A DNA stretch of 9,469 bases from Planctomycetes bacterium RBG_16_43_13 (GTDB lineage: Bacteria; Planctomycetota; MHYJ01): positions 1-9,469 of the forward strand of contig MHYJ01000067.1 in assembly GCA_001828445.1 (NCBI GenBank), written 5' to 3'. The notes under the pieces were generated by a model, which saw only the letters and a program-made list of their open reading frames with translations, did no database searches and was not told the origin of the DNA. A program made the translations under genes and the position numbers. Of this stretch, positions 881 to 8,171 are shown piece by piece (the first letter of the stretch is position 1; every line of letters begins with the position of its first letter).

Positions 881-1591
881 ATGAAGGCAATAGCATTGCT
901 CTCAGGCGGTTTGGATTCTACAGTCGCACTTGCGAAGGCACGGGAGAAACATAAAATCGTCCTCGCCCTCAATTTCGATTACGGACAACGTGCGGCGAGG
1001 AGGGAGGACTCCGCCGCTCGACGTGTCGCCAATCACTACAAGATACCGTATAAGAATATAAAATTAGAATGGCTCGAAGCAATAACGGATACAGCACTTG
1101 TGAAAGAAAGTCGGTCGCTCCCGCTACTGAAGATGTCACAACTCGACAACAAAAAAATCACGACTAAGACGGCGAGGGCGGTGTGGGTGCCGAATAGGAA
1201 CGGCGTATTTATAAATATAGCGGCGGGTTTTGCGGAGGCGGTCGGGGCGCGGCTTATTGTTACAGGGTTTAATAGAGAGGAGGCGGAGACGTTTCCCGAC
1301 AACTCGCAGGGATTTATGGACGCAATAAACAAGTCGCTCGCATTTTCTACGCTGAATAGCGTGAAAGTTACAAGCCCTACGGGTAAAATGGACAAGGTAG
1401 CGATTGTGAAATTGGGTATGAAGATAAATGCCCCGCTCGAATTTGTGTGGAGTTGCTACGAGGGCGGGCGGACGCAGGGTGGGCAGTCCGCAGGATCGTG
1501 CAAGAGATGCGAATCGTGCCAGAGATTTATGAGGGCGTGCGAAAAATCAAAAATCAACCCCGTACCGTCCCCATTATTTCTAAAGAAATAA
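881..1591 (+). CDS. queC: 7-cyano-7-deazaguanine (preQ0) synthase QueC
   Basis: Converts 7-carboxy-7-deazaguanine to preQ0 using ATP and ammonia, in the cytosolic pathway to queuosine and other 7-deazaguanines. The 236-residue protein has the PP-loop ATP-pyrophosphatase signature SGGLDST (8-14), 'LNFDYGQR' after the first strands, 'VPNRNGVFINIAAGFAEA' and 'TGFNREEAETFPDNS' in the middle, and the C-terminal zinc-binding cysteines C192, C207, C210 and C213. The oddity is the spacing from the first to the second cysteine: 14 residues, where relatives usually have about 8. The extra residues (around Q199-S206, containing GGQSAG) are encoded by a 20-nt repeat also found in the ORF at 2405. The ATG at 881 begins the expected 'MKAIALLSGGLDST'. 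No ribosome binding site is visible. The next gene starts 2 nt after the stop. Confidence 0.95.
   Translation: MKAIALLSGGLDSTVALAKAREKHKIVLALNFDYGQRAARREDSAARRVANHYKIPYKNIKLEWLEAITDTALVKESRSLPLLKMSQLDNKKITTKTARAVWVPNRNGVFINIAAGFAEAVGARLIVTGFNREEAETFPDNSQGFMDAINKSLAFSTLNSVKVTSPTGKMDKVAIVKLGMKINAPLEFVWSCYEGGRTQGGQSAGSCKRCESCQRFMRACEKSKINPVPSPLFLKK
1476..1495 (+). repeat. In-frame 20-nt dispersed repeat, copy in queC
   Basis: AGGGTGGGCAGTCCGCAGGA, identical over all 20 nt to 3261-3280. It encodes GGQSAG in the same reading phase in both genes. It sits between C192 and C207 of the QueC zinc site and accounts for most of the extra length of that loop. A 20-nt exact match is not expected by chance in a window of this size, and QueC and the other host protein are unrelated, so shared ancestry of the proteins does not explain it. 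Confidence 0.75.
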
Positions 1592-1593
1592 AT

Positions 1594-2358
1594 ATGTTTG
1601 AAAGTAAATGGTTTGTACCGTCAATAATAGGTATTGGGATAGTTTTGCTGATATGTGCTATATTATTTTTACCTTGTTTCGGAGTAGAGAAAAAGGATAT
1701 AGCACTACTTGTAGCTACTACCGTATTGACAGTAATAGTTACTCTAATTGCAATTACAATTCCTATTCGTCATGATATTATTAGTCGCAGGAATGAAAAA
1801 GAAGAAGAAATGAAGCAGATTTATATAAATAGCGTGATGTTTATAGGTTCAGAACTGGCTAATAATGTGGAGCTTTTACAGAGGGTAAAAGATACTATGG
1901 GTAAAAATGAAAAGGTTGCCCCATCAAAGGGACTACTATATGAATTGGCAGGAGTTGAAGTTGCTGGAAGGGCACTGCAATGTTTGGATGATAGATCTTA
2001 TGGCGATATAATAGCATCTGGTATTTTAGTAAAGGCACAAGATAGCGAATTTATAAACCGTTTACAAATGACTTATCAGGATATAAGACATTGTAAAGTG
2101 AGATTTGGGGAATGGGCTGAGATTTCTCATATGACTCTAAATCCACCTCCACCAATCAAGATAGAGGACAGCATAAATATGCATCGCGATGAAGTAGAGA
2201 AAGTTGTTAGGATATCGAAAGAAGAGCGTGACAATACTATTAAATCAATTGAGGAATGTATAAAAGCGGGGAATAAGGTTATTAAGCAATATGGCAAAGA
2301 GTTTACAATTCAGATGACTACGCAGGATGGCAAAGAGATTGAAAGAGAGATAAAGTGA
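1594..2358 (+). CDS. Two-helix membrane protein with cytoplasmic coiled-coil domain, unknown function
   Basis: I do not recognise this 254-residue protein. Two hydrophobic segments near the N-terminus (about residues 8-29 and 36-58) should form a membrane hairpin. A basic, charged stretch follows ('RHDIISRRNEKEEEMKQ'), which places the remaining 190 or so residues in the cytoplasm. This part is mostly helical, with a middle section 'SKGLLYELAGVEVAGRALQCLDDRSYGDIIASGI', a Pro run (PPPPIKIED), and a charged C-terminal stretch likely to form a coiled coil. The frame is open from 1447, but the first 49 codons overlap queC and read as non-protein-like sequence; the ATG at 1594, 2 nt after the queC stop, is the sensible start. 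Its A/T-rich coding sequence contrasts with the more G/C-rich queC and suggests a different origin. The tight junction implies co-transcription with queC. Confidence 0.7.
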   Translation: MFESKWFVPSIIGIGIVLLICAILFLPCFGVEKKDIALLVATTVLTVIVTLIAITIPIRHDIISRRNEKEEEMKQIYINSVMFIGSELANNVELLQRVKDTMGKNEKVAPSKGLLYELAGVEVAGRALQCLDDRSYGDIIASGILVKAQDSEFINRLQMTYQDIRHCKVRFGEWAEISHMTLNPPPPIKIEDSINMHRDEVEKVVRISKEERDNTIKSIEECIKAGNKVIKQYGKEFTIQMTTQDGKEIEREIK

Positions 2359-2404
2359 GGCGAAAAATAGTGACACTGACCATTTATTTTTGATTTTTTA
2401 AGCT

Positions 2405-3886
2405 ATGGCAATCGGTCAGACATTGAGGCAACTATTCCACAATATGCTGGTGGAGGGGATGCTCACAGGCGTCGTATATTACGATAGGGGAAAGCGGGCA
2501 TTCGTAGGGAGAGCCGCTCCATACACCTACACATTGAAAACGTCCCTGCCCACATCCAAGCAGAGGGATATGAGGGAGGCGCTTACGCCCCTTGCGAAGG
2601 GCTGGAGCGAGATTGCTACGAAGTGGGTTCGCCCCGTTAGCCCCGTTAGAAGTCCAACTTCTAACGGGGTTAGAAGTAATCCCGACTTATCGGGGCGAGA
2701 AACTTCTAACGGGGTTCATAAGCCCGATGGCACGCAAACCCTCTTCTATCCCGAGACGTCTCCTGACAAGATTACCCTAAACCAGAGGAAGGGGTGGGAG
2801 GGTGTGGCTAAAAGGGATAGGGATGCCAATCGGAAACGGCTACGGTATTATCAGATGGGTGAGAAGTTGAGCATACCCTGTTACAAGTGCGGCGGGTTCC
2901 ACCGTCGGAGGAGGCATCTGCGTCCTGCCAAGCGGTGCGGCATCATCCCGCGCGGTGCAGTTCTCACCTCCGGCTATAATGCATACATCCGCCACAATAT
3001 GTATGCCTACAGCGTCGGGTGGGGGATACCGCGCTTCGAGCCGCCATTTCTATCAGGCAAGGCATCCCCGCCAGAAATACTTGGCGTGTGGATTGAGGGA
3101 GACAAGATAATGCTCGCCATAGAGGAGGGCAGTTATCCGCGGGGCTTCCTACAACGTGCTATCAGGATTTGGGCAACTATACAGTATTGCGGTTTGGGGT
3201 ATGAGTTCTCAATAGTCGGCGCTGTGGAGTTGACGGGAAAGTTTAGACCTAATGACCAGAAGGGTGGGCAGTCCGCAGGACGAAGTGAGCCGTCCGCAGG
3301 ACTTGGTAAGAGGCGACCTATACACTTGGTAGTGGTTGATGTATTCGACGTTTCTAAACATACGTGGGGTGTGGAGGAGGTGTCCATTACAGACCTCGAT
3401 GGCGGGAGGGCTACATTTCAGTGTGATGCGGTAACGGCTAAGGATGAGGATACGGGGGCAATAGTAAGTGCGGTAGGGAATATGAAGGATGTAGAACTTC
3501 CCCGCAGGAAAGAAAATGGTAAGATAAAGAAGATAAAGGAGCACGTGAGAAGATATAAGCGGACACATAACACCGTATCCCCCATCTCTAAATTAAAGGC
3601 AAAAATAGCTGGTGAGATATACCGTGCCGAGAACAAGGAGAAGATAAAAATCTCTAAACAAAAGTGGGAAAAGGAGAATAGGGAGAAGATAAATGCCAAG
3701 CACCGTAAACGTTACAAGGAGGACGCTGAATTTAGGAGGCGGATTAAGGCAAGTAAGAAAAAGTGGGTGATGAAGAATAAGGAGAAGGCGTGCGGGTATG
3801 TAAAGAAGTATAACCAAAAGAACCGCGAGCGTATAAATGCCCAGAGGCGTGAGAGAAGAGCCAGAAAAAAGAAGGAGGGGAAGTAA
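2405..3886 (+). CDS. Large basic protein with in-frame palindromic repeats, unknown function
   Basis: A 493-residue protein of unknown function, a mosaic of four parts. Residues 1-75 ('GVVYYDRGKRAFVGRAAPYTYTLKTSLPTSKQRDMREAL') and 120-200 (ending 'LTSGYNAYIRHNMYAY') resemble, from memory and weakly, a loose family of phage- or conjugation-associated proteins with 'VVYYxRxGK' near the start and 'GYNxFxRxN' later. A Cys/His cluster (C159, C162, H166, H171, C178) could bind zinc. Residues 220-370 look like beta-rich globular sequence. Residues 377-493 are extremely Lys/Arg-rich, with recurring 'xNxEKIxxxxxKxxx' units typical of nucleic-acid-binding tails on phage proteins. Two repeat elements are translated within it (residues 76-109 and 286-301). 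No ribosome binding site precedes the ATG; M14 (2444) is an alternative. The long uninterrupted frame, despite two insertions, argues that it is expressed. Confidence 0.65.
   Translation: MAIGQTLRQLFHNMLVEGMLTGVVYYDRGKRAFVGRAAPYTYTLKTSLPTSKQRDMREALTPLAKGWSEIATKWVRPVSPVRSPTSNGVRSNPDLSGRETSNGVHKPDGTQTLFYPETSPDKITLNQRKGWEGVAKRDRDANRKRLRYYQMGEKLSIPCYKCGGFHRRRRHLRPAKRCGIIPRGAVLTSGYNAYIRHNMYAYSVGWGIPRFEPPFLSGKASPPEILGVWIEGDKIMLAIEEGSYPRGFLQRAIRIWATIQYCGLGYEFSIVGAVELTGKFRPNDQKGGQSAGRSEPSAGLGKRRPIHLVVVDVFDVSKHTWGVEEVSITDLDGGRATFQCDAVTAKDEDTGAIVSAVGNMKDVELPRRKENGKIKKIKEHVRRYKRTHNTVSPISKLKAKIAGEIYRAENKEKIKISKQKWEKENREKINAKHRKRYKEDAEFRRRIKASKKKWVMKNKEKACGYVKKYNQKNRERINAQRRERRARKKKEGK
2629..2716 (+). repeat. 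Self-complementary palindromic element translated within the 493-residue ORF
   Basis: A dense set of inverted and direct repeats. A perfect hairpin has 13-bp arms CCCCGTTAGAAGT (2641-2653) and ACTTCTAACGGGG (2657-2669) around a CCA loop. An enclosing 8-bp stem pairs TCGCCCCG (2629-2636) with CGGGGCGA (2691-2698). The 9-mer CCCCGTTAG is tandem (2632-2640, 2641-2649). AACTTCTAACGGGGTT occurs twice (2656-2671, 2701-2716), 45 nt apart, so both copies read TSNGV. A small hairpin CCCGA-CTTA-TCGGG lies at 2681-2694. The whole element is open in frame and adds about 34 residues (76-109) rich in Ser, Pro, Asn and Gly. Coding constraint alone does not create such pairing, so this looks like an inserted element. 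Confidence 0.8.
3261..3304 (+). repeat. In-frame dispersed repeat, longer copy in the 493-residue ORF
   Basis: Begins with the 20-nt sequence identical to 1476-1495 (here 3261-3280) and continues. The 11-mer GTCCGCAGGAC occurs at 3271-3281 and 3292-3302, 21 nt apart, so that SAG is translated twice in 'GGQSAGRSEPSAGLG' (residues 287-301). Each 11-mer can fold as GTCC-GCA-GGAC. GGACG (3278-3282) pairs with CGTCC (3291-3295) and AGTCC (3270-3274) with GGACT (3299-3303), giving alternative stems. It appears to be a fuller version of the element whose first part is present in queC. Confidence 0.75.
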
Positions 3887-4654: not shown

Positions 4655-4657
4655 TGT

Positions 4658-4727
4658 ACCCAGCACCTAAATTTTATGTAGTGCCTTATATTAATTAGAA
4701 TTTATTAGTAAAATTTAAGTGCTGGGT
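4658..4727. repeat. Long inverted repeat after queE, MITE-like or structural
   Basis: Left arm ACCCAGCACCTAAATTTTA (4658-4676) pairs with the right arm (4709-4727) over 19 positions with a single C-A mismatch; the A/T-rich loop is 32 nt (4677-4708). It starts 3 nt after the queE stop. There is no T-run after the stem, so it does not look like a classic intrinsic terminator, though it could stop or protect the queE transcript. The arms resemble terminal inverted repeats of a very small non-autonomous element, but no obvious target-site duplication flanks it and no second copy is in the window. Confidence 0.7.
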
Positions 4728-4755
4728 TGCCGATTATAGTTACGCCTGATATAGA
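4727..4755 (+). promoter_or_regulatory. Weak candidate promoter for the small membrane protein
   Basis: TTGCCG (4727-4732), 17 nt, then TATAGA (4750-4755). Each box matches 4 of 6 consensus positions. The -35 box begins at the last base of the inverted repeat's right arm, so folding of that repeat in DNA could affect it. This is only a spacing-plus-consensus argument. Confidence 0.3.
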
Positions 4756-6983: not shown

Positions 6984-8171
6984 ATGCATAGAATAGTGTA
7001 TCTTGACAACGTCGCCACTACGAAGGTGCATCCGCAGGTATTAGAGGAGATGCTACCTTATTTCTCAGAGTATTATGCAAATCCATCCAGCATATATAAA
7101 GTTGGCAGAGATGCCAGAAAGGTGGTAGAGGACGCACGGGAGGATATAGCCAGATATCTAAACGCCCAGCCAAAGGAGGTAGTATTTACAAGTTGTGCTA
7201 CCGAGTCGAATAACCTTGCTATAAAAGGGGTGGCATACGCACAAAGGCAGAAAGGCAACCATATAATAACGTCAACAATAGAACACTCCTCTGTGATAAA
7301 AGTATGTAAAGAACTCGAGAGGGAGGGTTTTGAGGTAACATATATCCCTGTGGATGAGTTTGGTATAGTTGATGCAGGTGCTGTTAGGGGCGCTATAAAA
7401 AAGGCGACCGTTTTAATTTCTATAATGTTTGCAAATAATGAGGTTGGCTCAGTGCAACCAATAGCAGAGATTGGTAAGATAGCGAGAGCGAATAATGTAA
7501 TATTCTATACTGATGCGGTTCAGGCAATCGGCAAGATAAAGATAGATGTTAATGCGCTAAATATAGATATGCTTTCTCTATCAGGGCATAAAATATATGC
7601 TCCAAAGGGAATCGGTGCCTTATATATAAGAAAAGGCACGTCAGTAAAACCGATGTTAGTTGGTGGGGAACAGGAATTCTCAAAGAGAGCAGGAACAGAA
7701 AATGTGGCAGGTATAGTGGGTCTGTATAAGGCAATAGAACTTGCCCACAGAGGTATGAATGAGAATGTGTTCAGAATGAATCAGCTAAAGCGGAGGTTAA
7801 TGGAGAGAATATCATCCAATATAGAAGGTTCGCATATAAATGGTAGTCCTACGCAGTGCCTCCCAAATATATTGAATGTTAGCTTTGAAAACGTAGAGGG
7901 GGAGGCAATAATACTATCACTTGATTCTGTAGGTGTTTATGTATCTACTGGTTCTGCCTGTGCTTCAGGTAGCGTAGAGCCGTCCCATATATTGCTCGCA
8001 ATGGGACTGGATGCAAGGGCAGTCCGCAGTTCTATCCGTTTCTCTATTGGGATATATAATACGGAAGAGGATGTGGACTATACAGCGGATAAGTTGATAG
8101 AAGTTATCAGTAGATTGAGGAGTATATCGCCATTTTCTGTTAGCGAAGCGATTGGTGGTGTGAAGAAATGA
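6984..8171 (+). CDS. Cysteine desulfurase, NifS/IscS family
   Basis: A PLP enzyme that removes sulfur from cysteine as a protein persulfide, for Fe-S clusters, tRNA thiolation or other cofactors. The 395-residue protein is full length: 'IVYLDNVATTKVHP' at the N-terminus, 'ATESNNLAIKG' (72-82), H101 ('IEHSSV') that stacks on PLP, D177/Q180, 'SLSGHKIYAPKGIG' with the PLP lysine K203, 'RAGTENV' (235-241), and active-site Cys C326 in 'STGSACASG'. Two substitutions are uncommon: V10 where relatives have Ala ('DNAATT') and C71 where 'SGATE' is usual. The start at 6984 gives the normal family N-terminus and has AAAGGA upstream. The stop overlaps cutA by 4 nt. No IscU-type scaffold gene is adjacent, so nifS/iscS identity is left open. 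Confidence 0.93.
   Translation: MHRIVYLDNVATTKVHPQVLEEMLPYFSEYYANPSSIYKVGRDARKVVEDAREDIARYLNAQPKEVVFTSCATESNNLAIKGVAYAQRQKGNHIITSTIEHSSVIKVCKELEREGFEVTYIPVDEFGIVDAGAVRGAIKKATVLISIMFANNEVGSVQPIAEIGKIARANNVIFYTDAVQAIGKIKIDVNALNIDMLSLSGHKIYAPKGIGALYIRKGTSVKPMLVGGEQEFSKRAGTENVAGIVGLYKAIELAHRGMNENVFRMNQLKRRLMERISSNIEGSHINGSPTQCLPNILNVSFENVEGEAIILSLDSVGVYVSTGSACASGSVEPSHILLAMGLDARAVRSSIRFSIGIYNTEEDVDYTADKLIEVISRLRSISPFSVSEAIGGVKK

Follow-up and report, generated by a model that had tools for sequence, protein, structure and literature searches.

The stretch of DNA analysed here (the window) is the 9,469-nt contig MHYJ01000067.1 of Planctomycetes bacterium RBG_16_43_13 (assembly GCA_001828445.1), and the subject of this report is a short coding repeat present in two of its genes, both on the forward strand. 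The first gene, queC (881..1591), encodes 7-cyano-7-deazaguanine synthase (Pfam PF06508, E 1.1e-55) and matched the NCBIfam equivalog model TIGR00364 with 183 bits against a cut-off of 150.3. The second, which carries the other copies, is an orphan open reading frame of 493 residues (ORF493; 2405..3886), whose reading frame had the highest codon score of the six. An exact repeat search revealed the 20-mer AGGGTGGGCAGTCCGCAGGA at 1476..1495 in queC and again at 3261..3280 in ORF493, on the same strand and about 1.8 kb apart; both copies are read with the codons GGT GGG CAG TCC GCA GGA as the peptide GGQSAG. The first-pass annotation of this DNA had reported the same pair, and its exact identity and common codons were reproduced here. 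The repeat word counted as present in both genes was RGTGRGCMGTCCGCAGGAY. Among direct and inverted repeats of at least 12 nt, the 20-mer was the longest exact one in the 9,469 bases, followed by a 16-mer within ORF493, and all others were 13 nt or shorter. No third copy of the 20-mer was found in the window at up to three mismatches, and no match to it was obtained in any of 200 dinucleotide shuffles. As two loci would be read in the same frame with a probability of one third by chance, the common frame was regarded as weak evidence when taken alone.

In queC, the repeat corresponds to a 21-nt unit at 1478..1498 (GGT GGG CAG TCC GCA GGA TCG), which encodes GGQSAGS at residues 200-206, between the zinc-site cysteines C192 and C207. 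A homologue search with QueC found 7,683 proteins, of which 120 were listed; one was the window's own QueC, and the cysteine spacing was compared in the 119 others. In the motif C-xN-C-x2-C-x2-C, the first two cysteines are spaced as C-x14-C in the window QueC and as C-x7-C in all 119 other homologues among the matches listed, none of which carried the extra residues. When 30 of the 119 were aligned with the window protein, a single clean gap of seven residues was seen in 30/30, and the closest aligned relatives, at 63-65% identity, showed it as well. The four cysteines were invariant in the alignment, and the window QueC keeps them together with the SGG-DS motif. The numbering of the two cysteines and the much shorter spacer of the relatives, both claimed in the first-pass annotation, were correct, and the absence of GGQSAG from related QueC proteins, which it had set as a check, extended to every homologue compared. 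In more distant QueC proteins, spacers of 8 residues (the solved structures 2pg3 and 3bl5) and 9 residues (L070 and L071) were counted by eye; the length of this loop appears to vary slightly among relatives, and none examined seems to approach 14. Matches to QueC were obtained in 2 of 5 genomes searched (the longest match at 30% identity) and by family in 6 of 6; the two QueC proteins from these genomes, 30% and 28% identical to that of the window, were too distant to help. A comparison with phages gave 243 records, every one below 60% identity. Organism names among the listed QueC homologues were mixed (Poribacteria, Firmicutes, Planctomycetota, Deltaproteobacteria and others). For another window gene, a Sua5-phosphatase fusion with at least 120 homologues, the seven organism-named ones among the 120 listed were all Planctomycetes or Planctomycetota, which points weakly to this phylum.

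The limits of the insert were drawn from the protein alignment alone, and the DNA repeat had been detected independently of it; 18 of the 20 bases of the repeat lie within the 21 inserted bases. Because the limits set by the proteins nearly match those set by the DNA, this agreement was counted in favour of an inserted repeat unit. The insertion can slide by 1 nt only, and thus a target-site duplication longer than 1 nt is not visible. The queC copy of the unit is free of stop codons in all six frames, so the frame used there was not forced. An AlphaFold2 model of QueC, built with a 31-sequence alignment, had a mean predicted local distance difference test score (pLDDT) of 91.3, and residues 199-203, which mostly belong to the insert, scored below 50; QueC is thereby predicted to fold with high confidence and to carry an additional, flexible loop, of which the low score of the insert is characteristic. 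From these comparisons, it is well supported that queC gained a repeated coding unit in frame.

ORF493 carries the unit twice, head to tail. The first unit (3263..3283) encodes GGQSAGR at residues 287-293 and is identical to the queC unit at 18 of 21 positions; the second (3284..3304) encodes SEPSAGL at residues 294-300 and is 16/21 identical to the first and 15/21 to the queC unit. The internal 21-nt repeat that had been noted earlier in this gene is thus real; the pair was not listed by Tandem Repeats Finder at score 30. The unit is therefore one of 21 nt, or seven codons, present once in queC and as a tandem pair in ORF493, and the fact that the queC insertion is exactly as long as one period of the ORF493 repeat was counted in favour of a common unit. 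A consensus of the first 19 positions of the three units found no fourth unit in the window at up to three mismatches, and no match in 200 shuffles. The unit pair of ORF493 contains a stop codon in one of the six frames. The host genes are similar in base composition, with GC contents of 0.50 (queC) and 0.51 (ORF493) and third-position GC of 0.57 and 0.58, respectively; seven other window genes measured gave 0.28-0.49, unlike these two.

In the protein homologue search, ORF493 recovered nothing but itself (record P0121); it matched neither a Pfam nor an NCBIfam family, and a tblastn comparison with phages and plasmids gave no match. One weak PHROG match was obtained at residues 411-460 (E 0.046). 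The structure model of ORF493 had a mean pLDDT of 47.4 and was too poor for a fold search. Three viral stretches that matched an ORF493 pattern were considered, and none was confirmed as a relative. Two further observations concern the surroundings of this gene. A 26-nt direct repeat with 88% identity is present at 305-330 and 2364-2389 of the window, the second copy lying shortly upstream of ORF493. Between queC and ORF493 there is an open reading frame of 254 residues (1594-2358), which had no Pfam, NCBIfam or PHROG match and whose third-position GC of 0.28 is far below that of its neighbours.

The potential of the repeat to fold was examined. Each unit contains GTCC-GCA-GGA(C/T), which allows a stem of at most 4 bp. 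Over the ORF493 pair a larger hairpin may form (3270..3303; 12 pairs, a single bulged A per arm and a loop of 8 nt), and the predicted RNA fold of the pair was -17 kcal/mol; 25 of 200 shuffles folded equally well (z -1.23), and hence the fold was not significant. The fold of the queC copy was not unusual either (z -0.78). A different and strong palindrome of 85 nt was found in frame within ORF493 at 2631..2715 (about residues 76-104). In this segment a 16-mer is directly repeated (at 2656 and 2701) and inverted arms of 13 nt are present, and the segment's RNA fold of -46.9 kcal/mol (z -5.66) was matched by none of the 200 shuffles. The word "palindromic" suits this segment better than the 20-mer, and the segment may also be the better candidate for an element resembling the Rickettsia palindromic elements (RPEs). 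Elsewhere in the window, an intergenic hairpin of 75 nt whose arms are 19 nt long (4656-4730; z -5.24) lies 3' of a queE-like radical SAM gene that scores below the curated QueE cut-offs; the hairpin may be a terminator or a small element with inverted repeats. No Rfam match was obtained at gathering scores.

Further copies were sought outside the window. The exact 18-mer core of the repeat was found in 59 reference-genome stretches belonging to differently named records, with one copy in each; none of the 59 matching stretches had two exact copies, a search that diverged copies would escape. A GC content of at least 0.57 was seen in 54 of the 59, many were Burkholderia-group matches with one common context, and the flanks of the matches were, by eye, unlike those in the window. 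In viral contigs, GGGCAGTCCGCAGGACG was present in 10 stretches, six of them with identical flanks, and there were no matches for GAAGTGAGCCGTCCGCAGGA, for AACTTCTAACGGGGTTAGAAG or for the gapped inverted arms of the second element. The 11-mer GTCCGCAGGAC, doubled at a distance of 3-25 nt, occurred in 10 viral stretches, as compared with 1 for a reversed and 1 for a stem-swapped control word of equal composition. These ten stretches are not independent, because the flanks of L078 are also those of L079, and one sample number is common to L073 and L077. The clearest tandem arrays of GTCCGCAGGAC (L073, L077, L078 and L079) have units of 15 nt, with 11 copies in L079; several of their frames are open, and one of them reads PSAG repeats from the codons TCC GCA GGA. 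In L078 no other open frame is longer than this one, whereas in L073, L075, L077 and L079 it is exceeded by another. The arrays were not counted as the same element, since their unit length differs from the 21 nt of the window, and the excess of the doubled word hints at a sequence prone to repeat rather than at kinship. As a separate observation, GTCCGCAGGAC is repeated at 7487-7531 of the viral contig L080, just past a part of an open frame that is rich in lysine and arginine; our guess is that these repeats possibly lie inside a phage replication gene. Within the window, the 13-mer GGGCAGTCCGCAG of the unit recurs at 8017-8029 in a cysteine desulfurase gene, in a different frame. Shuffles gave a mean of 0.00 matches to it, and this third match was left unexplained; the protein aligned at this position without a gap to its best match of solved structure, and no insertion was apparent.

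With moderate confidence, we favour the explanation that a 21-bp unit was copied into queC and that it most likely represents a small dispersed repeat resembling the repetitive extragenic palindromic (REP) sequences. The extra residues of QueC with respect to its relatives, the size of the unit and the sequence common to the two genes are observed; more copies would be expected elsewhere in the genome, and the direction of the copying, its mechanism and its neutrality for QueC are proposed. The unit, seven codons in the frame used, would have entered the loop that joins the zinc-site cysteines C192 and C207 and lengthened it from 7 to 14 residues with the gene unbroken. It would be non-autonomous, and it would be tolerated wherever the frame survives and its Gly/Ser/Ala-rich peptide falls into a flexible loop. 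Copying would probably have occurred by template switching during replication or repair, or through an unknown recombinase; we lean to the former because of the near-palindromic core and because no target duplication longer than 1 nt is visible. REPs and RPEs that lie in frame within genes have been described before (PMC3733652, PMC2229807), and these precedents were counted in support of this explanation.

Several observations weigh against it. The stem is short, at 4 bp, and the fold was not significant; there are only two loci, 1.8 kb apart; the 18-mer core was single-copy in all 59 matching reference stretches; ORF493 appears to have no relatives by which its copy could be recognised as an insertion; and the cysteine desulfurase gene contains 13 nt of the word with no insertion there, which shows that fragments of the word can arise in other ways. 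The first-pass annotation had gone further and proposed a family of palindromic mini-elements that insert into genes in frame. What stood of this proposal is the in-frame repeat in queC, absent from 119/119 listed relatives; a family and mobility are at most conjectural (two loci, and none of 59 stretches with two copies), and a strong palindromy was not seen (z -1.23 and -0.78). That a family of frame-preserving 21-bp units spreads into genes and multiplies head to tail, adding loop modules of seven residues, is a doubtful extension in our estimate. If it exists, such a family would, to our knowledge, comprise the smallest mobile repeat that is translated in this way.

The main rival to the favoured explanation is a one-off event, in which queC received a copy of a short segment from ORF493, or from the forerunner of ORF493, during replication or repair, or the reverse, with neither a family nor mobility. 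We consider it possible, although on the unlikely side. It would readily account for there being only two loci, near each other and on the same strand, for the invisibility of a target duplication longer than 1 nt, and for the lack of multi-copy matches among the 59 reference stretches; queC and ORF493 are also alike in composition and unlike the seven other genes measured. What it accommodates less well is the tandem pair of ORF493, the two units of which differ at 5 of 21 positions, which suggests an older unit that repeats itself. Selection at the protein level was considered in turn: linkers of the GGQSAG type would be useful, and the identity of the DNA would follow from a selected or converged peptide. 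The viral arrays that read PSAG from TCC GCA GGA (L073, L077, L078, L079) point in this direction, but these arrays are open in several frames and the SAG frame is the longest only in L078 and not in L073, L075, L077 or L079. Moreover, the window copies are identical over six codons, synonymous positions included, and such a linker was present in none of the 119 other QueC proteins listed. This explanation was judged improbable.

We hold it equally improbable that the unit genuinely belongs to the GTAG-tagged REP superfamily and owes its mobility to a REP-associated tyrosine transposase (RAYT). The layout GTGRGC followed by GTCC-GCA-GGAC does resemble, by eye, the tag, spacer and hairpin of the REP sequences GTGGGAGGGGGCTTGC and GTGAGCGGGCTTGCCC (PMC3116915), and intragenic REPs were most numerous, with GTGG tags, in Opitutus terrae, which belongs to the superphylum that includes the Planctomycetes (PMC3733652). 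However, the stem has 4 bp as against the published 5-13 bp (PMC3733652), one of the units has GTGA, and Pfam searches with eight window proteins named no transposase. Least probable of all, and hardly credible to us, is an artefact by which the 20-mer arose from a chimeric metagenome join. The window may be a metagenome record, and repeats are the words able to misjoin contigs; yet queC continues on both sides of the insert in the right order and frame, and a single misjoin cannot create the insert. The significance of the repeat depends on its number. If further copies exist, a very small coding repeat would join the known in-frame DNA repeats that lengthen proteins, and the insert would lie in a metal-site loop where the tolerance of insertions is directly testable; if there are only two loci, it would be a neat but ordinary case of local sequence copying.

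The kind of element considered here is already known from translated palindromic repeats in genes, namely RPEs and intragenic REPs. RPEs are repeated elements of 105-146 bp with long stem-loops that are translated in frame within conserved genes (PMC2229807), and their host enzyme, such as guanylate kinase, can remain active (PMC2229807, PMC10969869). The window unit is like an RPE in being repeated DNA that is translated in frame within a conserved gene, queC, and unlike it in its 21 bp, its 4-bp stem and its two loci, as compared with the 105-146 bp and inverted ends of RPEs. Of the features by which RPEs are known, an in-frame insertion absent from homologues was observed for queC only (119/119 listed lack it), a long stem-loop of 105-146 bp was not seen in the 21-nt unit, and with respect to occurrence in many genes of one genome, two genes carry the unit within the window. 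The likeness to RPEs drawn in the first-pass annotation thus applies to the manner of in-frame insertion but not to size.

Intragenic REPs have been described for several species and are most numerous in O. terrae and Rickettsia conorii (PMC3733652). Elements of the GTAG/CGTC type occur in the Planctomycetes-Verrucomicrobia-Chlamydiae superphylum; they are 20-40 bp long and are found singly or in pairs, some of them wholly intragenic and most between genes, and their stems measure 5-13 bp; one end carries the tag, and pairs are mostly inverted (PMC3733652). The window unit likewise is short, is single or paired and lies within genes; in contrast, its stem read from the sequence of a single unit is 4 bp, outside the 5-13 bp of GTAG REPs, its pair is arranged head to tail, and the window has no copy of it outside genes. 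At the position of the tag, GTGG is found in two of the window units and GTGA in the third, and GTGG has been reported for most GTAG-20 elements of O. terrae (PMC3733652). The layout, GTGRGC and then GTCC-GCA-GGAC, also recalls by eye the REP groups I and II of Pseudomonas fluorescens (PMC3116915). By analogy, the unit appears to work like these systems, and membership in REPs or RPEs would fail on stem length. The palindromic amphipathic repeat coding elements (PARCEL) are palindromic coding units that occur in tandem in proteins, form amphipathic domains largely in membrane proteins and have spread horizontally (PMC2996958); the window shares with them the tandem palindromic coding units, and differs in that its unit adds seven residues to an enzyme. 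Nearest in size are the cyanobacterial small dispersed repeats (Elhai 2008), which are about 20 bp long, variable in tandem number and possibly mobile (PMC2884548). As to dispersal through a genome, the window shows two loci at a distance of 1.8 kb. The likeness is one of description, and it extends to a length of about 20 bp and to a tandem number that varies by locus, with one unit in queC and two in ORF493.

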